Below are positions 182 through 19,369 of a DNA stretch of 26,108 nucleotides, piece after piece. The DNA is taken from positions 1 to 26,108 of the IMG/VR virus record IMGVR_UViG_3300047384_000194; one strand, 5' to 3'. How positions within the stretch are numbered: the stretch's first letter is position 1; each line of letters opens with the position of its first letter. Both the position numbers and the translations under genes were made by a program. Under the pieces are notes generated by a model, which did not search any database, was not told the origin of the DNA, and saw only the letters and a program-made list of their open reading frames with translations. Origin of the DNA: a virus.

Positions 182-457
182 TTATCTAGTTGTCTCGTCG
201 TCTTTTTGTACTGTAAAGTTTTTATAGTTCTTTAAATATCTTACTTGATCTAAAAGAGCTACCATATAATCGTTGATAAAGAGTAAAAACTCTCTAATCG
301 TTTGGTTTCTTTGAATATGAGGGGAAACTTGTCTACCGATTAGACCTCTTTGACCAGACTTATAGTCGTACTTGGTATTCTTAAGATCGTCTCTTCTGTG
401 CTTGGCCACTTTATACAGCCTTTTACGCTTGTAAACTAATAGGTCTCTAAATAACAT
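182..457 (-). CDS. Small basic protein in the baseplate operon, unknown
   Basis: A 91-residue protein with a Lys/Arg-rich first half (MLFRDLLVYKRKRLYKVAKH) and a more hydrophobic second half around residues 55-80. I do not recognise a family. Its ATG overlaps the stop codon of the gp6-like gene by one base (TAATG), so it is probably translated by coupling to gp6. The next gene starts two bases after its stop. Position and co-expression suggest a small structural or assembly factor of the baseplate wedge, but nothing in the sequence proves it. It has no signal peptide and no convincing transmembrane segment. Confidence 0.65.
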   Translation of the reverse strand: MLFRDLLVYKRKRLYKVAKHRRDDLKNTKYDYKSGQRGLIGRQVSPHIQRNQTIREFLLFINDYMVALLDQVRYLKNYKNFTVQKDDETTR

Positions 458-2286
458 TATTTCAAGGCTTTTCTATTTCCAGCCTGTACTCTAGTGTATA
501 TTGTTCTAGGTACCGGCGTTTCATCAAAATTCACACTAAGTGCAGCTTCAGCATTAATACGGGCGTCGTCAATAATAGGGTCACCATCTCGGTCTTGCCA
601 TCCGCCTCTAAAGACAGCGACTTCTTCTTTCTCCATGATGATGTCACCCCATTCGTCTAAGCCTGCAACTGTATAAGGAATTTGGGTAGTAGCATCTACA
701 TCCACGGTCTTAACTTCCTCAATGCGCTTAAAGAAAATATATTTTTGTTTGCCGTTACCAATATCTTCTAAAACTACAGGTTCTTGTGGAACAACAGATA
801 CAGTTTTAGACTCATAGTAACCTAGACGTCTAGCTGTCTCTTCTGTTTCCGAGATGAATCTCACATTTACTGCATCAATACCATCAATTTCTTCTAGAAT
901 ATACACAATATCAGATTTAGGCAATTTATCTCTTCTTGTAATATTCAATAAGTAGTCACTTACTCTAGCTCTAACTTCGCTAAAGATTTCTTGTTTCGTA
1001 TAGCCCTCAAAATATCTAATATTAATATCTAAGCTATATTTTCTAATTTGAGGTTTAACAAATACCACTTCAGTAGTAACCATTTGTTGGCCACTATCTT
1101 GAATTACTTGTGACATTTTGTCATATTCGTTTTGGTCAAAGAACATTTCATTCTGTGGAATAGAGAAATAGTCTTGACTTGCTAATAGTTTTCTTTTTAT
1201 ATCTGGTACAGCAAAAATATAAATAACATTATCATCATCTAAATACTGATCCGATGTGGTATTGTAAGCATCCACATACGAGAACATACCATATCTTGAT
1301 AAGAAATACTCGTAATTGTCTGGAGTTGCTAAGACGTAAGATTTGGAAGCGAGAGGTGCCATTAACTTAGTAAATTCAGTCGACTCTTTGTCTGCGCCCA
1401 TTTTAGGTGAAGAAGTTACATTAACCTCTAGGTATTCATTTAAGTCAAAATCATCGCCATTAGAATCTACACCATCTGATAACCATTGAAAAATAATATC
1501 TTGACCATCGTCAATATTACCTAAAGCACCTTTGTGTTTTACATATTCAATTTGAATATCAGATCCAGCTGGTGGAATTGCACCAAAATTACCAGTACCA
1601 AAGTAAACATCTAACCCGCCTGAAATACCTGTTTTAAGTATATAGCCTTTTTCTTCGTTTAATAAGTCATACATGGACTCATGTTTAGTCCATTGCTCTC
1701 CGTTAATAGCAACTGTAACTTTTGAATGATCTGTTAACCCATTAATTTTTATATTGTAAGATTGCATTGGCTCTCCAGTTCCAGTAAATGTTTGTTGTTC
1801 AAACTGACCCTGAATAATAGCACACTTAACTTTAAGTTTATTAGATTTTTCCAATCTAAACTTTTCTTGTTGACTTAATATAGTGTATTTTAAACTATTT
1901 AATTCACATGATAGTTCTGATCTAGCATCAATATTTAAACCAGTACCTGCAATCTTACCAAGATCTGCACCTACTTTCCATCTAAATTCAATCTCGCCAG
2001 TTGCAGCAAAACCTCTAGTTGCATCATGGCCAGTTAATCTTGATAGACCATATATAGACTCTGGTTGCTGAGCAGTATAAATGTTTTGTTCTACTGTAGC
2101 ATCTTCTACATAGAACATAATTAGTTCACCAAGCTCTGCCATTACATTTACAATCTGAGCAAATGGTGAAGCCTCTGTAAATAGAGTGTTTGCACGATTA
2201 TACACTCTTGCAATGTAAGTACGAGCATCAACCTTAATTTGGTTAGCGCTGGTTCTTAGTGTACTTAAAAATTTTAATTCTGCCAT
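457..2286 (-). CDS. Baseplate wedge protein, gp6 / baseplate J-like
   Basis: A 609-residue protein close in length to T4 gp6 (about 660). In contractile tails gp6/J-like proteins form the dimeric ring of wedge arms that links the hub to the tail fibres. The N-terminal part has the usual signature: a segment around residues 40-65 (ASPFAQIVNVMAELGELIMF) followed by a YVEDATVEQNIY-like helix and a GLSRLTGHDATRG segment, then beta-rich sequence. The C-terminal half carries RYFEGYTKQEIFSEVRARV and an EEIDGIDAVNVRF stretch, as in J-like proteins that end in alpha/beta domains. It lies directly after a gp25-like gene, the order seen in most contractile injection machines. Its stop overlaps the next ATG by one base. 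The family assignment is confident; exact homology to T4 gp6 rather than P2 gpJ is less so. Confidence 0.85.
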   Translation of the reverse strand: MAELKFLSTLRTSANQIKVDARTYIARVYNRANTLFTEASPFAQIVNVMAELGELIMFYVEDATVEQNIYTAQQPESIYGLSRLTGHDATRGFAATGEIEFRWKVGADLGKIAGTGLNIDARSELSCELNSLKYTILSQQEKFRLEKSNKLKVKCAIIQGQFEQQTFTGTGEPMQSYNIKINGLTDHSKVTVAINGEQWTKHESMYDLLNEEKGYILKTGISGGLDVYFGTGNFGAIPPAGSDIQIEYVKHKGALGNIDDGQDIIFQWLSDGVDSNGDDFDLNEYLEVNVTSSPKMGADKESTEFTKLMAPLASKSYVLATPDNYEYFLSRYGMFSYVDAYNTTSDQYLDDDNVIYIFAVPDIKRKLLASQDYFSIPQNEMFFDQNEYDKMSQVIQDSGQQMVTTEVVFVKPQIRKYSLDINIRYFEGYTKQEIFSEVRARVSDYLLNITRRDKLPKSDIVYILEEIDGIDAVNVRFISETEETARRLGYYESKTVSVVPQEPVVLEDIGNGKQKYIFFKRIEEVKTVDVDATTQIPYTVAGLDEWGDIIMEKEEVAVFRGGWQDRDGDPIIDDARINAEAALSVNFDETPVPRTIYTRVQAGNRKALK

Positions 2287-2293
2287 TAGTTAT

Positions 2294-2650
2294 TTATCTT
2301 AAATTTACTTGGATTGTGTACTCATTATTTACAGTAATGTCTACATAACAAATATCTCTAACTTCACCTTTAAAAAACTTAACATCTACTGACGTATCGT
2401 ATTTTCTAGAAAGGGGTACGTAATTAGATAGTTGTTTTTCAATCTCGTTTCTAATTTGGAATTCATTTTGGTTTAAACTATACACCAAATCTTCTAAATT
2501 ACATCCAAAATCAGGTTCACCTAATACATCATTCTTTCTAGTAAAAAGAGTATTCTCGATCTGTGTCAATAACTGCTCTATCTCACCGTTGTTTTGTACA
2601 ACAGTTGTTTGATAGTTAGGGTCACCTATATGTTTAATGTAAAAATCCAT
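2294..2650 (-). CDS. Baseplate wedge protein, gp25 / W-like
   Basis: A 118-residue protein, the usual size for the gp25 family (T4 gp25 is 132). gp25/W proteins sit at the heart of the baseplate wedge and start sheath assembly. The hallmark is the conserved Glu-Pro stretch at residues 44-50 (GEPDFGC), followed by an amphipathic helix (NLEDLVYSLNQNEFQIRNEI) that matches the family pattern of EP...G...L...L. The third position of the classical EPR motif is Asp here. The C-terminus is beta-rich (YVDITVNNEYTIQVNLR), as expected for the lysozyme-like fold. It lies seven bases before gp6 and about twenty after a putative neck or structural protein. The start ATG at 2650 is preceded by AT-rich sequence and no Shine-Dalgarno motif. 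Confidence 0.85.
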   Translation of the reverse strand: MDFYIKHIGDPNYQTTVVQNNGEIEQLLTQIENTLFTRKNDVLGEPDFGCNLEDLVYSLNQNEFQIRNEIEKQLSNYVPLSRKYDTSVDVKFFKGEVRDICYVDITVNNEYTIQVNLR

Positions 2651-2670: not shown

Positions 2671-3513
2671 TTATGAGTGGAACATCCAGTCCACACCTTC
2701 GTCACCCTTAATTTCTTCAATAATCGACTCTAATTCGGTGTCTCCCATGTCTTTTATTGCGTCATAATCAAATTCTACATTACCAGGTAATGCAAATTTA
2801 AAGATACCAAGTTTGGCACCTAAAGACTGCTTTATTTTAGCAGAACAATATCTAAAAAATATTTCATCTTCATAAATAGCACAATCTGGTAGAGTTTCGT
2901 ATACATGTAGAATTACATCCTTCTTAGGCGTATCACCTAAGATCTTTAACTCACCAGTTAATCTTGAGTATTGAAATGAAATAGGATTTTCCATAATCTG
3001 TCTAGACAAATCAGCTAAAGATTGATTTAATACATAGTATTGTAATTCTTCTGCAGCTTCCGCAGCTCCAGCACCCTCATACATTCCTCTAAATAACATT
3101 CTTTCTAAAGCGAAGTCTCCACCACTTTGAAATCTTACATCTAATCCACCTCCAGTAGAATTAAAACCAGAACCAGTATCATGGACACCAAATACAGAAA
3201 ATACTGCACCTGAACCATCCACGCTTGCATTAGGTAAATTTAAAGACCTGTGGTTTTTAAAATACGTAGAAGCAAATACTTCTGCTGGAACATGATAATA
3301 GTTCTCTCTAACAGCATCTTCATAGTTTTTATAGAACCATTTCTTAGCTCTTTTAACTATATTAATAATTTCTCTTTGAGGTAGGTTAACAGGAACCATA
3401 CATGCACCAGTCATGTCGTCACCCAATTCTTGAAGGAATGCGTTTAAACAACTATCGCCGAATGATCTTTCGGTGCTTAAGTTAGTTTCGTTACCTGATC
3501 TTATTTCACTCAT
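2671..3513 (-). CDS. Putative virion structural protein (neck/connector-like C-terminus)
   Basis: A 280-residue protein without signal peptide or transmembrane helices. I cannot name the family firmly. The N-terminal third has a Lys/Arg-rich amphipathic helix (REIINIVKRAKKWFYKNYED). The middle is Gly/Ser-rich (roughly residues 98-135). The C-terminal part (FRYCSAKIKQSLGAKLGIFK, then LPG and an acidic helix) resembles from memory the end of neck and connector proteins of large myoviruses, where an AxxxxxLG...F...LPG pattern recurs. Position just upstream of gp25 and gp6 supports a virion role. Alternatively it is an extra baseplate or tail-completion component. Its stop is 20 bases before the gp25 start. 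Confidence 0.45.
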   Translation of the reverse strand: MSEIRSGNETNLSTERSFGDSCLNAFLQELGDDMTGACMVPVNLPQREIINIVKRAKKWFYKNYEDAVRENYYHVPAEVFASTYFKNHRSLNLPNASVDGSGAVFSVFGVHDTGSGFNSTGGGLDVRFQSGGDFALERMLFRGMYEGAGAAEAAEELQYYVLNQSLADLSRQIMENPISFQYSRLTGELKILGDTPKKDVILHVYETLPDCAIYEDEIFFRYCSAKIKQSLGAKLGIFKFALPGNVEFDYDAIKDMGDTELESIIEEIKGDEGVDWMFHS

Positions 3514-3514
3514 T

Positions 3515-4825
3515 TTAACTATTTATTTTTGTGCTTACCACTATTTCAGTATCATCAAATCTAGCATGTGGACCAATACCACCCTCTCTGAAAATACCTC
3601 CAATCATTCTACCTTTGAAAATACCATCTCTTCCAAAGACAAAACAATTTGTTAATTGACAACTACCATGTACATAAGAAGACTCAACTTTTGAATCCTT
3701 TACCTCACAACCTTTATAGAGTTGTGATCTTATTATCTGTGCACCATCAACAATACCACCATAAATAGCACTATTTTCGATGTTGCCTGATAGCTCGCAA
3801 TCTATAAACTCAAAGCCATCTAACAAGTATGCAGTTTTAAATTTACCACCTTTAACTTGTACCATACCGTAGTCGGAATCGTAGTTAATAATACCCTCTT
3901 CCATACCACCGTGTGCGAGTAACGCTAGAACTTTATGTTTAAATCTGTTCCATTGTACTTCGATTACTTGCTCGTTGTCTGTTAAGTCCACTAATATATT
4001 TATCTTCTTCCAATATTTATTTACTGCTTTGTAATCTTTTAGCATTTCCATTAGAGGTTTATTCTTCTCTAAGATACGCTTAAGTTCGATTTTATTCTCA
4101 GGAGTAAATTTAGGATTAAAACAAGATTTAAAGACAGACATGATAAATCCATCTGCAAGATGTAGAATATCATCTGTTCTTTTCTCATAATCCTTACCAC
4201 CTAAATATCTAAACTCTAAATAGTTCTTCTGTGCCTTTTCAAAGTTAATACCATAATATTTAGTATTAGCAAAAGTAAAGTTATCTGAACTAATTAGATT
4301 TTCGTTATAGTAAAAAGCTTCATGTTTAGGCATAATCCATTTAATAGACTTTGCATAAGTAGAATCTTCTCTATTTGGGAAATACTTGTATACTCTAGCC
4401 TCATCAAACTCTAGAATAAATTTCAACACAGACATGTGTTGAACCATATTTTTATCTACTAAATAATCAGGGTTAAATGACATATTAAGGTGGATTGAAG
4501 CTCGGTCATTTGTATAACCATTCTTTTCAATCCATCTTAACATTTTTTGAATTACAATTCTAGCATTTCTATAAGGCATAGGACCCGTTACGAGTTCAAT
4601 TAAGCCTTTACCACCTGACATATCAGGTTCCATCTTAAAGACATCAGCGCTTGGTTGGAAATCAGAATGTGCTTTATCTTCTAACTTAATCTTTCTATTT
4701 ACTAACTCAGATATAGATTTTTGTGTTTCCTCTAATTCTAGATTAGAATAAAACTCAAACTCAATTCCAATCTGGCTAGCGTTTAGAATAGATTGCCTAT
4801 CCGAAGATACGTTTAGTTTTTGCAT
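3515..4825 (-). CDS. Amidoligase-like (glutamine-synthetase fold) protein with C-terminal beta-helix
   Basis: A 436-residue, apparently two-part protein. The first 300 residues show motifs spaced as in COOH-NH2 ligases of the glutamine synthetase/glutamate-cysteine ligase fold: IGIEFEF (19-25, metal-binding Glu pair), EPDMSGGKGLIELVTGP (66-82), SIHLNMSF (110-117) and YLEFRYLGG (202-210). Such enzymes use ATP to form amide bonds between a carboxylate and an amine. From about 322 onward the sequence becomes short hydrophobic/Gly/Cys repeats (FIDCELSGNIENSAIYGG, SSYVHGSCQLTNCFVFG), the look of a left-handed beta-helix or pentapeptide-like solenoid. It lies between the S1-like gene and the neck/gp25/gp6 genes, so it is probably expressed with virion genes. 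The substrate is unknown; peptide tagging of a phage or host protein, or a cell-wall-related reaction, are guesses. Fold call fairly sure, activity not shown. Confidence 0.65.
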   Translation of the reverse strand: MQKLNVSSDRQSILNASQIGIEFEFYSNLELEETQKSISELVNRKIKLEDKAHSDFQPSADVFKMEPDMSGGKGLIELVTGPMPYRNARIVIQKMLRWIEKNGYTNDRASIHLNMSFNPDYLVDKNMVQHMSVLKFILEFDEARVYKYFPNREDSTYAKSIKWIMPKHEAFYYNENLISSDNFTFANTKYYGINFEKAQKNYLEFRYLGGKDYEKRTDDILHLADGFIMSVFKSCFNPKFTPENKIELKRILEKNKPLMEMLKDYKAVNKYWKKINILVDLTDNEQVIEVQWNRFKHKVLALLAHGGMEEGIINYDSDYGMVQVKGGKFKTAYLLDGFEFIDCELSGNIENSAIYGGIVDGAQIIRSQLYKGCEVKDSKVESSYVHGSCQLTNCFVFGRDGIFKGRMIGGIFREGGIGPHARFDDTEIVVSTKINS

Positions 4826-4879: not shown

Positions 4880-6160
4880 TTAGGGTAATTTTAAAAATAC
4901 CTTCATAGACGATTCATCAATTCTAGTAATTTGTACATCTAAAGAATCACCTATCATATATTCTTCAAGTTTATTATCTGGAAGCTCGCTTACATGTAAT
5001 AAACCAGTTACGCCCTCTTCAATATTTACAAATATGCCATAATCCTTTTTAGTCTTTACTTTTGCAGCAACAATAGAAGGTATTTGGTATCTTGATGAAA
5101 TATTAATCCATGGATTAACAGCAGTCCCCTCTTTTTGAGTTAAGGTAATTTTGTTATTACTAATAATATCTTTTACAAAGAAGTTAATTGGCTCTCCTGG
5201 TTTAATATCTCTATTCTTAAATCTAACTAAAGTATCTTCATTTAATTCATTATTATGAATCATTCCAGTTAAACATTTATCAAACTCAACAAAGACCCCA
5301 TATTTTGCAGTTCCTGTTACGTTACCTTCTTTAGGTTCTTGTATATTTTCTTTTAAGTTATTAATAGCCTGTGGAATTAAAGCTTGTAAATATTTTCTAT
5401 GTGATACTACAATTGTACCTCTATCTGGAGAGAAACTAACTGGTACTACATAAATTTCTTCACCGACAATAGAACTAAAGTCAGATAGTTTATTAATACC
5501 TGCAAGTGAACCTGGCATAAAGCAATCTATACCTTGTACTCTTACAATATAACCACCATTCTCAATCATATTTTTAACCTTACCGATCCAGGCAGTATTA
5601 CCCTCTTCGATACCAGCTCTTAGGTCCATGAAAGTTTTATGTTTCACTCCACCTGTAATAGATCCAGTTAATGTACCCTTTGTTTCTGTAATTAAGACCG
5701 CTGTCTCTTCACCAGGCAACATCATTCTAACTTCTTCAGATTCTTTTGAAGCCTTTACATATACAGACTCTCTATATCCTATATCAACAGTAATCCATTC
5801 TTGGTCTACTGCATAGATATTACCTGTATGGATTTCTCCAATATTTAAACTTGGTTTAATTTCAGGGCTATTTTCAACTAAAATATCATATAGCTCTTGT
5901 GCATAAGGTTCTCTTGAATATACCTTATCACCATGTCTAGTCTTAATATGTGGATTTGGTTTTCTGGTTTTAGTAACACACGTAGCTTCGTATGCGTCCC
6001 ATAAGAACTCGCCGCTCTCATCGTAGAACTGTGCGTGGGGATCTTGAGTTTCCTCTTTTACTTCTTTAATTTCTTCTGTGGGTCTTTGAATAGTTTCAAC
6101 TAATTCAACTGTGTTTGCTTCTTGGGTTGCAGAAATTCTGCGTCTTTTTTTATCTGACAT
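4880..6160 (-). CDS. Ribosomal protein S1-like RNA-binding protein, four S1 domains
   Basis: A 426-residue protein built of four OB-fold S1 repeats at roughly residues 106-168, 187-256, 277-345 and 360-425. The last two are clearest: GNVTGTAKYGVFVEFDKCLTG with IHNNEL, and AAKVKTKKDYGIFVNIEEG with LHVSEL, matching the S1 pattern G.V....yGiFV......GL.H.SEL. The first 45 residues are charged and probably disordered (DKKRRRIS, then Glu-rich). Cellular bS1 usually has four to six such repeats and brings mRNA to the 30S subunit, which matters for messages with weak Shine-Dalgarno sequences. Most genes in this window lack one, so a role in steering host ribosomes to phage mRNA is an attractive inference. 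An alternative is RNA stabilisation or packaging into virions. It has its own upstream promoter-like element. Confidence 0.85.
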   Translation of the reverse strand: MSDKKRRRISATQEANTVELVETIQRPTEEIKEVKEETQDPHAQFYDESGEFLWDAYEATCVTKTRKPNPHIKTRHGDKVYSREPYAQELYDILVENSPEIKPSLNIGEIHTGNIYAVDQEWITVDIGYRESVYVKASKESEEVRMMLPGEETAVLITETKGTLTGSITGGVKHKTFMDLRAGIEEGNTAWIGKVKNMIENGGYIVRVQGIDCFMPGSLAGINKLSDFSSIVGEEIYVVPVSFSPDRGTIVVSHRKYLQALIPQAINNLKENIQEPKEGNVTGTAKYGVFVEFDKCLTGMIHNNELNEDTLVRFKNRDIKPGEPINFFVKDIISNNKITLTQKEGTAVNPWINISSRYQIPSIVAAKVKTKKDYGIFVNIEEGVTGLLHVSELPDNKLEEYMIGDSLDVQITRIDESSMKVFLKLP

Positions 6161-6182: not shown

Positions 6183-6198
6183 CATATTATATATCTAC
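6183..6198 (-). promoter_or_regulatory. Putative phage promoter element before the S1-like gene
   Basis: On the minus strand the sequence is GTAGATATATAATATG, containing the GATATATAAT element seen elsewhere in the window. It ends about 25 bases upstream of the ATG at 6160. The TAG stop codon of the upstream HExxH gene lies inside the element, so a coding end and a promoter share bases. Confidence 0.5.
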
Positions 6199-6563
6199 TT
6201 AAGTACGCGTTTTATCCATGCGTAATGTTTTCTACCACTTAGGTAGCTTAAGTTATCATCATTATCGTAAGCCTCTCTTTCAAACGAGATGTTATAGTAG
6301 GCTTTTTTACCATAAAAGAATAGTTTAATAAACCACTCAGTTACATACCAAATATAAAATGGTATAATTAGCATCTCTTCTTGTTGTTTAATATGAATAG
6401 TCTCGTGGTTAATTATCCTAGCCGCCTTTCTTCTCCACGGTGGAGTCGAATTGTAAATCTCTCTTAAGATAACATACGGCCAAAGGGTAATACCGCCGAT
6501 CCTCATAAATAGACCTATGCGGTCTAAAAATTTATCATTATATTTAATAATAGGTGTTTTCAT
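6195..6563 (-). CDS. Small HExxH zinc-metallopeptidase-like protein with hydrophobic segments
   Basis: A 122-residue protein with a zinc-binding HETIH motif at residues 53-57, inside INHETIHIKQQEEM. A downstream FEREAYDND stretch (94-102) provides a Glu in the place of the third ligand of gluzincin-type peptidases. Between them is a strongly hydrophobic, aromatic segment (about 64-84, LIIPFYIWYVTEWFIKLFFY) and there is another around 17-34, so it may be membrane-associated. Short proteins with HExxHxxQ and ErEAy motifs occur in Bacteroidetes and their phages; their substrates are not known to me. The neighbouring gene also encodes an HExxH protein, suggesting a pair acting on the same target, for example in lysis or release. 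It could also have lost catalysis. Confidence 0.65.
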   Translation of the reverse strand: MKTPIIKYNDKFLDRIGLFMRIGGITLWPYVILREIYNSTPPWRRKAARIINHETIHIKQQEEMLIIPFYIWYVTEWFIKLFFYGKKAYYNISFEREAYDNDDNLSYLSGRKHYAWIKRVLK

Positions 6564-6577
6564 ATAATTTATATATT

Positions 6578-7078
6578 CTATTTACAAATCTCAGCCCTGG
6601 GTATAAATAACTTATGTGTTAATTCTTCAGCGTGTTGTTCCCAAGGTCTATCTCCCCATGGTTGGTCCCATGTAGATATTTGACCTCTCCATGTAACTAG
6701 GCCAAATCCTTCTTTTAATAAACCCTTTTCAAATTGATAAACATGTACGAGTTCATGAAAGAATGTTCTCTCTAATCTCTCTAACGTATATCTACTATTT
6801 AATTGAATTAGATAAATGTTAGGTAATATTTCTGTAGTTAGTCCAATAATCCTAAAATCTAATGGAGCCATTTCTGTTTTAATCACCGGTGATATAAGAG
6901 GTGGATTTCGTAACAAGGAATCTCTTAAAAACTTTTTTGAACTTTCATTATTAATAACCTCTGCTATAGTAGGTCTTTTGATAATTGAAATATTAATGCG
7001 CTCGGGTTTATTATCTTCTGCAATCTGAGCTGCAAAGAGGTAAAATACTAACAGAAAGATGAATCTTTTAAGGATAAT
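6578..7078 (-). CDS. HExxH zinc-metallopeptidase-like protein, likely exported, non-ATG start
   Basis: The frame has no ATG or GTG. A TTG at 6916 would give 112 residues, but the frame stays open upstream to a TAA just before 7091 and encodes a classic signal-peptide pattern: ILKRFIFLLVFYLFAAQIAE, basic then hydrophobic then small residues. I therefore favour a rare start, ATT at 7078-7076 or the adjacent ATC, giving about 166 residues. A promoter-like element ends 18 bases before, the spacing seen at other genes here. The mature part has HELVH (residues 54-58 counted from the TTG) within RTFFHELVHVYQFEKG, and PWEQHAEELTHKL about 35 residues later supplies a third-ligand Glu. It is probably secreted to the periplasm or membrane. 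A sequencing error or frameshift at the start cannot be excluded. Confidence 0.55.
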   Translation of the reverse strand: MILKRFIFLLVFYLFAAQIAEDNKPERINISIIKRPTIAEVINNESSKKFLRDSLLRNPPLISPVIKTEMAPLDFRIIGLTTEILPNIYLIQLNSRYTLERLERTFFHELVHVYQFEKGLLKEGFGLVTWRGQISTWDQPWGDRPWEQHAEELTHKLFIPRAEICK

Positions 7079-7209: not shown

Positions 7210-7683
7210 ATGTATATTAAAGAACACGAAGGATTTAGCGGGGAAACGGTTTACTCAATCGAACAAAACATTAATGGTAAAATGCACAAATTCCATACAA
7301 GCGAATATGGCTTTAAATGGGATGTAGAATATGACTATAGAGTCGTTACGAAATGTGTAGCTGGTTGGATGACTATTACTGAAGGTAAATCCACTCTTGC
7401 AGCCCTAGTTAATAGGTATAAGAAGAATGCCTTACAGACGATCGAACTTAAGTCTACTCACCCTGGGTCAGACACTTATTTAACTGCCTTGGCACTTAAA
7501 GCCAATAAGTTCGCCACCGTGGCAAACTGTATCTTGGAGAACATAACTATAGGTACCATCCATAGTAGCTTCCCAAAGATGGCTGATCATGGTCACTGGA
7601 AAAACATTGGTAGTAAGACCTGGGCCGATAACGCTTACAAATTAGAAGACTCTTTTAAAAATATAACTTTAGTAGAAGCATAA
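7210..7683 (+). CDS. Plus-strand orphan protein, unknown
   Basis: A 157-residue soluble protein I do not recognise. It starts MYIKEHEGFSGETVYSIEQN and has alternating beta-like and helical stretches, with a Gly/Trp/His-rich part near residues 125-140 (KMADHGHWKNIGSKTWADNA). No signal peptide or transmembrane segment is seen. Together with the following gene it is the only plus-strand coding in the window. Base composition looks slightly less AT-rich than its neighbours. The stop TAA overlaps the next ATG (TAATG), so the two are probably co-translated. A separate, host-like promoter suggests early expression, for example in host takeover or defence evasion, but that is inference. Confidence 0.7.
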   Translation: MYIKEHEGFSGETVYSIEQNINGKMHKFHTSEYGFKWDVEYDYRVVTKCVAGWMTITEGKSTLAALVNRYKKNALQTIELKSTHPGSDTYLTALALKANKFATVANCILENITIGTIHSSFPKMADHGHWKNIGSKTWADNAYKLEDSFKNITLVEA

Positions 7684-8093
7684 TGGAACAATTTAACTAT
7701 AAAGAAATCAAATGTAACGGTGTTGGTGGCTCGGGCTACCAAGCCGTTCTTAAACACAAAGATCAAATCCAATCTATTTGTCAAGAGGTTCGAGACTTAC
7801 TCGGCGATAAACTCTGGGATAAAATGATTAAGCAGGCATCTGAAGTAGATACTTACACTGAATATCATTCGGGTCGTAGATACAACAGCGTAGAAGATAA
7901 TGCTTATAGATTGGTTACTGGGATTGCAAGACAAGTATCTTCTTACCTTAACGATGATTTGCTAATTGAGATGCACGTAGGAGCCATTCTAGACAACCTA
8001 ACTATTGACGAAAAGGTTTATATGGTTCTCGATGCTCTTCGCGACTGTGCGTCTGCAGACCATTGGTATACTTTCGAAAAGGACTGGGGTTAA
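7683..8093 (+). CDS. Plus-strand orphan protein 2, unknown, mostly helical
   Basis: A 136-residue protein that looks mainly alpha-helical with balanced charge (for example QSICQEVRDLLGDKLWDKMI). I do not recognise a family. It starts on the overlapping TAATG of the preceding gene and ends tail-to-tail with the minus-strand 602-residue gene, the two stop codons overlapping by four bases, which leaves no room for a terminator between the convergent genes. The co-directional pair may form a small two-protein module; no function can be assigned from sequence. Confidence 0.7.
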   Translation: MEQFNYKEIKCNGVGGSGYQAVLKHKDQIQSICQEVRDLLGDKLWDKMIKQASEVDTYTEYHSGRRYNSVEDNAYRLVTGIARQVSSYLNDDLLIEMHVGAILDNLTIDEKVYMVLDALRDCASADHWYTFEKDWG

Positions 8094-18778: not shown

Positions 18779-19369
18779 TTAATTTTCTGTGTTAAAAAAG
18801 AATGTTTGAAATAATCTACCTGTTTCCAGGTCTTTACCGAAATAATCTAATGATGCATGAAATAGATCGCCAGGATAAAGTACTAATCTATTATAGACAT
18901 TACCTATAGTATCTACCAATTCCCACTTAGTGTAGTCTTGGCCATCCTTATTAAGTTTGTCTAATAATTCAAAGTCTTTTTCTCCGTTTGCTAATCTAGG
19001 GCATGAAATAAGTCCGGTTTCTTTATGTCTATAAATACCAGTTCCTCCAGTAACAGGAGCATCTGGAGTCAAATAACATACTCCTGCCCAGTCGTTCCAG
19101 CCATCACAATGAATCCAAGTTCTATCTGCTGCAGTTGTATATTGAAATGCACCACAATATTCTTCTTTGCCTTCTTGTGGCCAGATAGGTTCGCCATGCA
19201 CTCCTTTTAAATGATGTGCAATCCAATTTTTAATTGATGGTGATAGGAATGCTTGAGTCCTATGACCTGGATAGTTGCCGTCTACATTAAAGTCTTGTTG
19301 TAAAGCAAAGGCTCTAACATCATCCGGATTATCGTAAAAGTTATCTATAATAATTGCGCTATATGCCAT
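18779..19369 (-). CDS. 2OG-Fe(II) oxygenase-like protein
   Basis: A 196-residue protein with the order of motifs of small phage 2-oxoglutarate/Fe(II) dioxygenase-like proteins. The start has IIIDNFYDNPDDVRAFAL and GNYPGHRTQ. The iron ligands fit His87-x-Asp89 (TWIHCDGWNDWAGVCYLT) and His171 (YPGDLFHASLDYFG), with Arg185 (GRLFQTFFFN) in the place that binds the 2OG carboxylate. A GGTGIYRHK turn is also usual. Such enzymes hydroxylate proteins, bases or small molecules; the substrate here cannot be read from sequence. It starts on the overlapping TAATG of the helicase gene, so it is translated with it, which hints at a nucleic-acid substrate but does not prove one. Confidence 0.7.
   Translation of the reverse strand: MAYSAIIIDNFYDNPDDVRAFALQQDFNVDGNYPGHRTQAFLSPSIKNWIAHHLKGVHGEPIWPQEGKEEYCGAFQYTTAADRTWIHCDGWNDWAGVCYLTPDAPVTGGTGIYRHKETGLISCPRLANGEKDFELLDKLNKDGQDYTKWELVDTIGNVYNRLVLYPGDLFHASLDYFGKDLETGRLFQTFFFNTEN

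Follow-up and report, generated by a model that had tools for sequence, protein, structure and literature searches.

Within the 26,108-base virus record IMGVR_UViG_3300047384_000194 (the window, i.e., the whole stretch of DNA analysed), we identified a gene whose 436-residue product, named AML here for amidoligase-solenoid fusion, combines a glutamine-synthetase-like ligase domain with a C-terminal β-solenoid and is very probably an amide ligase enzyme. The gene keeps the same place beside neck and baseplate genes, displays a conserved active-site pattern and evolves under purifying selection. Tentatively, we favour the reading that AML is an active, ATP- and metal-dependent ligase that is made with the neck and baseplate proteins and acts, docked through its solenoid, on a virion or assembly protein. 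The parts of the gene are laid out in the window as follows:

3515..4825, minus strand: AML, the amidoligase-solenoid fusion gene, 436 residues (open reading frame and translation, PF12224 above cut-off, AlphaFold2 model; stop codon at 3515-3517)
4106..4825, minus strand: glutamine-synthetase-like ligase domain, residues 1-240 (best VIA-align row, covering model residues 8-239)
3911..4105, minus strand: mainly helical linker, residues 241-305, the least conserved part of AML (DSSP of the model; 1.5% invariant columns)
3518..3910, minus strand: C-terminal β-solenoid, residues 306-436 (folded alone; pentapeptide-repeat and β-helix structural neighbours)
4754..4768, minus strand: GIEFE, residues 20-24, with E22 and E24 as putative metal ligands (invariant in 96/96 sequences; model strand 17-27)
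4595..4597, minus strand: E77 (in ELVTG), putative metal ligand (invariant in 96/96; strand 75-79)
4484..4492, minus strand: HLN, residues 112-114, putative metal/ATP residues (H112 and N114 invariant in 96/96; strand 110-117)
4208..4216, minus strand: EFR, residues 204-206, putative metal and phosphate residues (E204 and R206 invariant in 96/96; strand 203-209)

The initial annotation had placed an open reading frame (ORF) at exactly 3515-4825 with its strand unstated; the coordinates are borne out, the strand is minus, and all of the motifs quoted at the time occur in the protein, namely GIEFEF (residues 20-25), EPDMSGG...ELVTGP (66-82), HLNMSF (112-117) and EFRYLGG (204-210). AML matches the Pfam family PF12224 (Amidoligase_2) over residues 18-127 with an E value of 4.1e-7 and 30.6 bits, against a Pfam cut-off of 22, while scans with NCBIfam and PADLOC models returned no match for the protein. 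With this family AML shares the above-cut-off score, the glutamine synthetase fold and the succession GxExE, E, HxN and ExR, which we take to be the residue pattern of Amidoligase_2; it differs by its C-terminal solenoid and by a conserved EFRYxGGxxY stretch. To our knowledge, most members of Amidoligase_2 have not been tested biochemically.

From a structural perspective, the AlphaFold2 model of AML, built with 23 sequences, had a mean predicted local distance difference test score (pLDDT) of 90.8 and a predicted template-modelling score (pTM) of 0.82. Structure prediction followed by a fold search had been named beforehand as the test of a glutamine synthetase fold, and the best solved matches are indeed glutamine synthetases: a Foldseek search of the PDB returned eight matches at E ≤ 1e-3, every one a chain of the same glutamine synthetase entry, with further glutamine synthetases ranking next, and the best VIA-align row has a Z of 11.5 over 182 residues at a root-mean-square deviation (rmsd) of 3.3. 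Glutamine synthetase and gamma-glutamyl-methylamide synthetase thus resemble AML residues 8-239 in fold (Z about 10-11.5), with an identity of only 9-15% in the VIA-align rows. PafA/Dop and GCS were not among the best 50 rows, which excludes no relation to either. In a library of viral models, 48 matches were obtained at E ≤ 1e-3, 29 of them named and 22 of those annotated as amidoligase; the top match is a full-length uncultured-phage protein of 439 residues (template-modelling (TM) score 0.87) and the third a protein of Agrobacterium phage Atu_ph07, discussed below. The AML relatives in this library were deposited as uncharacterized or as 'Amidoligase enzyme'. With glutamine synthetases and gamma-glutamyl-methylamide synthetase as its highest-ranking solved folds, AML could also be an enzyme making a small amide metabolite (gamma-glutamyl or similar) without any protein substrate; yet such a role leaves the conserved solenoid and the fixed place among virion genes unexplained, and no biosynthetic partner was recognised in the window, so that we consider it quite improbable.

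The C-terminal part, folded alone as a 131-residue sequence, gave a confident all-β model (pLDDT 93.1). A C-terminal β-solenoid, as the initial annotation had proposed, is therefore upheld, but its length of 115 residues is not: the solenoid starts near residue 306-308 and comes nearer to 125 residues. Its structural neighbours are pentapeptide-repeat, synthetic solenoid and right-handed β-helix proteins (Z 7-10)—values that reflect shared architecture, not kinship. Among them, the pentapeptide-repeat proteins MfpA, Qnr and AlbG have a solenoid architecture like that of AML at Z about 8-10. The pentapeptide-repeat model found no match in the window AML in the Pfam scan; in L085 and L163, the two relatives scanned, pentapeptide models stayed below cut-off, with Pentapeptide_4 reaching an E value of 5.6e-6 in the homologue of the 735 kb phage. 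A sequence search of the PDB with our A1 profile gave weak solenoid matches only (E 0.003-0.36). The SV2 luminal domains, top solenoid matches in Foldseek at E about 1e-4, had TM-scores near 0.2 and were not accepted as relatives, and eIF2B was likewise set aside (rmsd 11.4).

Conservation was assessed in a set of 96 sequences, 67 of them distinct, comprising 79 of the 80 related contigs whose gene order is given below, five huge-phage records, 11 further loci and the divergent contig L171; one locus was dropped because its ORF is split. That locus is in contig L079 (8001-9138), where either a frameshift or faulty assembly has broken AML into two overlapping ORFs. Ten residues are invariant in all 96 sequences: G20, E22, E24, D68, E77, H112, N114, R152, E204 and R206. 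Eight of these (E22, E24, E77, H112, N114, R152, E204 and R206) are putative active-site residues; the metal and phosphate ligand roles given to them are our assumption, assigned by analogy with glutamine synthetase rather than computed. G20 lies on model strand 17-27, and D68 and R152 lie outside the four active-site strands. L171 is the only sequence to differ at K159 and K162, which the other 95 share, and E66 likewise occurs in 95 of 96. Loss of the metal-binding glutamates in close relatives had been named as the observation that would speak against the enzyme assignment; instead, E22, E24, E77 and E204 are retained throughout. With 23 sequences, invariant columns make up 20.8% of residues 1-240, 1.5% of the linker and 5.3% of the solenoid. 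Moreover, AML is under purifying selection, with a median dN/dS of 0.097 (56 of 153 pairs usable), to be compared with 0.089 for Ad2, 0.102 for gp6, 0.178 for gp25, 0.170 for the S1-like protein and 0.065 for the hub protein encoded in the same cluster. The solenoid is under looser selection than the remainder of the protein (0.16 vs 0.09, from different sets of usable pairs).

Judged from these sequences, AML is probably an active ligase, since the eight putative active-site residues are invariant. The opposite possibility—a structural or chaperone protein that has kept the fold and lost catalysis—draws its support from one observation, the place of the gene among virion genes. Against it, the eight residues are unchanged even though overall identity drops to about 27-29%, and residues 1-240 exceed the solenoid in invariant columns. 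A pure pseudo-enzyme is unlikely, given that the entire active-site pattern is preserved, and we regard this explanation as highly improbable.

The window holds a virion gene cluster, almost wholly on the minus strand, with some DNA-metabolism genes toward its end; Rfam and tRNA scans of the window found nothing. The genes flanking AML are these:

2671..3513, minus strand: head-tail adaptor Ad2 (neck), one base from the AML stop codon (phrog_211, E 2.2e-9)
2294..2650, minus strand: gp25-like baseplate wedge protein (phrog_43, E 1.2e-4; PF04965 below cut-off)
457..2286, minus strand: gp6-like baseplate wedge protein, Baseplate_J (phrog_219, E 5.5e-27; PF04865 above cut-off)
4880..6160, minus strand: ribosomal-S1-like protein (PF00575, E 2.8e-27)

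An S1-like gene on one side and neck, gp25 and gp6 genes on the other had been read from the sequence at the outset, and the Pfam and PHROGs matches agree. For the S1-like protein, rpsA-type NCBIfam models match most of the length, all below their cut-offs. This arrangement is stable. A profile scan of IMG/VR found at least 547 stretches with AML relatives, indicating that the group of large uncultured phages carrying AML is widespread, and neighbourhoods were counted in the best 80 of 96 relatives, which include near-identical contigs and hence are not 80 independent cases. Ad2 follows AML in 80/80 contigs, at a spacing of 1-4 bases in 77, with an overlap in two and a distance of 182 in one; an S1-type gene precedes AML in 76/80, mostly at 48-56 bases, and no more than 350 bases upstream of AML are available in the remaining four contigs. 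In addition, the protein distances of AML correlate with those measured for Ad2, gp25, gp6, S1 and the hub protein (r 0.80-0.95 over 22-25 loci, 0 of 1000 permutations in each case), which argues that AML is inherited with its cluster. The description of AML as 'inserted' between virion genes was thus overstated: within this phage group it is a stable member of the cluster.

Several further genes in and around this cluster deserve mention. Two small proteins with HExxH motifs, HETIH and HELVH, are encoded at 6195-6563 and 6578-6916, both on the minus strand; the first matches phrog_15610 ('protease'), the second is weakly like M78/SprT metallopeptidases, and both genes occur in only part of the related contigs. 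A plus-strand gene pair (7210-8093) lies in the minus-strand virion cluster upstream of S1 and is found in some relatives only. At 18782-19369 (minus strand), a protein matching DUF6445 and phrog_1644 ('minor coat protein') adjoins a DNA helicase gene.

The constant presence of the S1-type gene raises the question of whether AML modifies the translation machinery, be it the S1-like protein encoded beside it or a ribosomal protein of the host, much as RimK adds glutamates to S6. In favour of such a role are the upstream S1-like gene itself, also present in the 462 kb record LR756500, and the parallel S1 and AML protein distances (r 0.93). However, S1 lies about 48 to 440 kb from AML in four records over 630 kb, the S1 profile finds no S1 gene in the stretches around the relatives from phages Atu_ph07 and SCTP-2, and AML is mostly nearer to Ad2 than to S1. 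This explanation stays alive because an S1-type gene neighbours AML, although we hold it to be improbable.

Phage amidoligases are known from gene cassettes of the phiEco32/LUZ24 type, for which Salinivibrio phage CW02, Pseudomonas phage tf and Cellulophaga phage phi14:2 (the first half of its genome) served as comparators. In these phages, the genes for GATase, ATP-grasp and AIG2/gamma-glutamyl cyclotransferase are grouped within sets of replication-type genes, with the structural genes on the other strand, in blocks that are presumably early. The cassette ligase is annotated in CW02 and tf; in phi14:2 it would be gp52, a 515-residue cassette gene whose length matches that of the phi14:2 'Amidoligase enzyme'. 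The cassette ligases belong to the same broad superfamily as AML, and proteins of CW02, tf and phi14:2 are among its viral fold matches, but they sit among replication genes whereas AML sits among virion genes.

Partner genes were sought in 19 records behind AML loci, 12 of which are IMG/VR contigs and possibly fragments; one record (behind L164) carries the same AML as LR756500. A PF12224 search of these records was insensitive, finding one of 19, against 18 of 19 with our A2 profile. GATase_6 was found in 0/19 AML records, against 14/14 control genomes and 3/3 cassette phages. GGACT was positive in 3/3 cassette phages and in 4/19 AML records (two copies in LR745206), nowhere within about 24 kb of AML. 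The ATP-grasp model PF13535 matched 0/19 AML records, yet also 0/3 cassette phages, so that this search is blind. No GATase, ATP-grasp or gamma-glutamyl cyclotransferase match appeared by name among the window proteins (29 against PHROGs, 20 against Pfam). Membership of AML in a phiEco32/LUZ24-type cassette was rejected from the GATase and GGACT searches together with gene order. On sequence grounds, AML and the related jumbo-phage proteins appear to form a separate branch, since the A2 profile matches proteins of Atu_ph07 and SCTP-2 and scores the cassette proteins tested no better than E 0.1 (ten-sequence search).

The same comparison bears on whether AML modifies the host envelope, i.e., peptidoglycan peptides or surface amines, for instance against superinfection. 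Peptidoglycan change and superinfection exclusion are the published readings of phage amidoligases in PMC5498523, PMC10580990 and PMC11318856. Some huge genomes do carry GGACT (AIG2-like), the cassette partner present in all three comparators, and the absence of GATase does not mean that every partner is absent; for these two reasons the envelope hypothesis remains alive. We nevertheless consider it fairly unlikely: the GATase_6 gene that all comparators possess is missing from every AML record searched, 15/19 records lack GGACT and the others carry it at a distance, and AML keeps company with virion genes rather than with a cassette among replication genes.

Support for a virion or assembly target also comes from huge phages. 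Two-domain AML homologues with 32-39% identity recur in LR756500 (462 kb) and in LR756502, LR745206, LR756504 and LR756501/LR756503 (634-735 kb), and every one of the five huge-phage records searched gave a single A2 match. In four of the five (LR756500, LR756502, LR745206 and LR756504), AML lies at most 3 kb from Ad2 or from the tail-cluster gene g603—two genes separated by 184-383 kb in LR756502, LR745206 and LR756504 and by about 13 kb in LR756500. The order S1 - AML - Ad2 is kept in LR756500 with small ORFs between, three of them between S1 and AML. In LR756504, gp25 and Ad2 are encoded on the other strand at a distance of about 2 kb from AML, and g603 is about 186 kb off; in LR756502 and LR745206, Ad2 is about 350-390 kb away, and g603 and a LysM-type wedge gene stand beside AML, as does g502 in LR756502. 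AML is also close to g603 in the IMG/VR contigs L160-L162. In L171 (27% identity), AML directly follows a gene matching head closure Hc2 (phrog_679, E 3e-5); behind AML comes a gene with matches to PHROGs of unknown function and a weak match to a tape measure protein, and some 3 kb upstream there is a collagen-like gene.

Some features of these genomes stand apart from the question of the target. L171 (CAIWBA010000291.1), a 254 kb contig binned into a Bacteroidetes metagenome-assembled genome, probably represents a jumbo phage and not host DNA. It carries AML, Ad2 and g603 homologues, and its Ad2 match has one internal stop. In the 735 kb phage, five tandem paralogous ORFs (L085:907-4533) lie about 3-7 kb from AML, and a relative of them is found between g603 and AML in LR756502. 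Reading the ORFs adjacent to AML in the huge phages revealed no family common to all that could be a Pup-like small tag, although sister genomes share some. At E ≤ 0.05, PF12224 had no match in L085 and L163, the two huge-phage homologues scanned. According to PMC7162821, the 735 kb phage was the largest described in 2020.

Among cultured phages, the nearest relatives (A2 profile, ten-sequence search) are AUZ94978 of Atu_ph07 (E 9e-20; 30.2 bits with PF12224) and gp125 and gp124 of Salicola phage SCTP-2 (E 2e-14 and 3e-11); the A2 search of records missed the SCTP-2 pair, and direct profile comparison finds both. These proteins share E77, H112, R152, N194, E204, R206, the GG and Y213 with AML. 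In Atu_ph07, one gene lies between AUZ94978 and the portal gene, on the opposite strand. The capsid protein AUZ94997 is gp215 in PMC6102473, and the same accession offset turns the portal AUZ94980 into gp198 and the prohead-core protein AUZ94986 into gp204, both present in the head-gene list of that source; because the offsets fit all three numberings, AUZ94978 corresponds to gp196. By this offset, gp196 falls inside coding sequences 170-215; according to PMC6102473, three clusters encode most of the virion proteins detected by mass spectrometry, and this is one of them. In SCTP-2 (L088:6924-10684), gp125 and gp124 form a tandem amidoligase-like pair, unlike the single AML, and one gene separates them from the ClpP homologue gp122.

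A number of observations weigh against a virion or assembly target. The S1-type gene is the other constant neighbour of AML and fits a translation role equally well, and GGACT, a cassette-type gene, does occur in 4/19 AML records. No closeness exists in the 735 kb genome, where AML lies at 241 kb, Ad2 at 455 kb and g603 at 635 kb. The structural genes used for the distances in huge phages were chosen after inspection, with no chance level computed, and LR756502 and LR745206 are alike in the AML region, so the four of five are not four independent events. None of the window virion genes tested was found near AML in L159 and L163, and in L171 AML is about 89 kb from the Ad2 homologue and about 68 kb from that of g603. 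Furthermore, the Atu_ph07 and SCTP-2 relatives, unlike AML, show no solenoid in the profile alignment, and no annotated neighbour of the SCTP-2 pair is a virion gene, though most are only 'hypothetical'.

Set against the fixed neck/baseplate position, the lack of a GATase partner and the closeness seen in four of the five records from huge phages, these observations leave a virion or assembly protein as a possible substrate for AML, and the neck specifically as a less probable one. A virion- or assembly-linked amide ligase had been suggested by the initial annotation; fold, family, glutamates and solenoid fusion bear out the ligase, and the virion or assembly target is suggested by gene context. 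In the mechanism that we envisage, AML would be expressed late, together with the neck and baseplate proteins. Enzymes of the glutamine synthetase fold activate a carboxylate with ATP, after which an amine attacks. By analogy, AML would use ATP to phosphorylate a carboxylate, carried by a Glu or Asp side chain, by a C terminus or by a free amino acid, and an amine would then attack the activated group to form an amide. The solenoid would most likely serve as a docking arm bringing AML to a part of the assembling virion, with the neck or head-tail junction as first candidate, where the enzyme would tag or cross-link a structural protein or a closely linked assembly factor. The substrate is the most conjectural element of this scheme, and its narrowest form—an ATP-driven, solenoid-tethered ligase that covalently tags or cross-links the phage's own neck or tail during assembly—is doubtful. 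Some capsids, such as that of HK97, make isopeptide cross-links by themselves, and the step proposed here would be an enzymatic counterpart. We know of no protein-ligation step of this kind in any virion assembly.

As for the host, the cultured phages nearest by gp6 are mostly phages of Bacteroidota (Prevotella, Tenacibaculum, Flavobacterium and Chryseobacterium), with Sphingomonas phage PAU as the exception. Five AML-bearing records have lengths matching genomes of PMC7162821, a match by length and not by accession, and the five genomes over 634 kb were predicted there to replicate in Bacteroidetes. A Bacteroidota host is likely on both counts. Tenacibaculum phage PTm1, Sphingomonas phage PAU, Lak-A1 and Flavobacterium phage MaF61 gave no A2 match, but the search held no positive and the Lak-A1 gp6 is interrupted under translation table 11, so that absence is not established. 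In PAU (L178:226-9707), gp25- and gp6-like genes occur in the window order with one small gene between them and no AML seen, near genes whose products were named capsid decoration proteins and internal capsid vertex proteins by its authors.

Phage amidoligases themselves are already known; what is new here is that a ligase fused to a solenoid is stably maintained, that it occupies a fixed place in the neck/baseplate cluster of a widespread group and recurs in huge phages, and that no GATase accompanies it. We found no description of a solenoid-fused amidoligase among virion genes in the accessible text of the literature searched, including PMC11318856, PMC5513430 and PMC12419801. In that literature, phage amidoligases are interpreted as acting on the host cell wall or on metabolites, while AML is an apparently active, two-domain enzyme encoded by a constant gene of a widespread phage group. 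If AML modifies virion proteins, phage assembly would include ATP-driven protein ligation.

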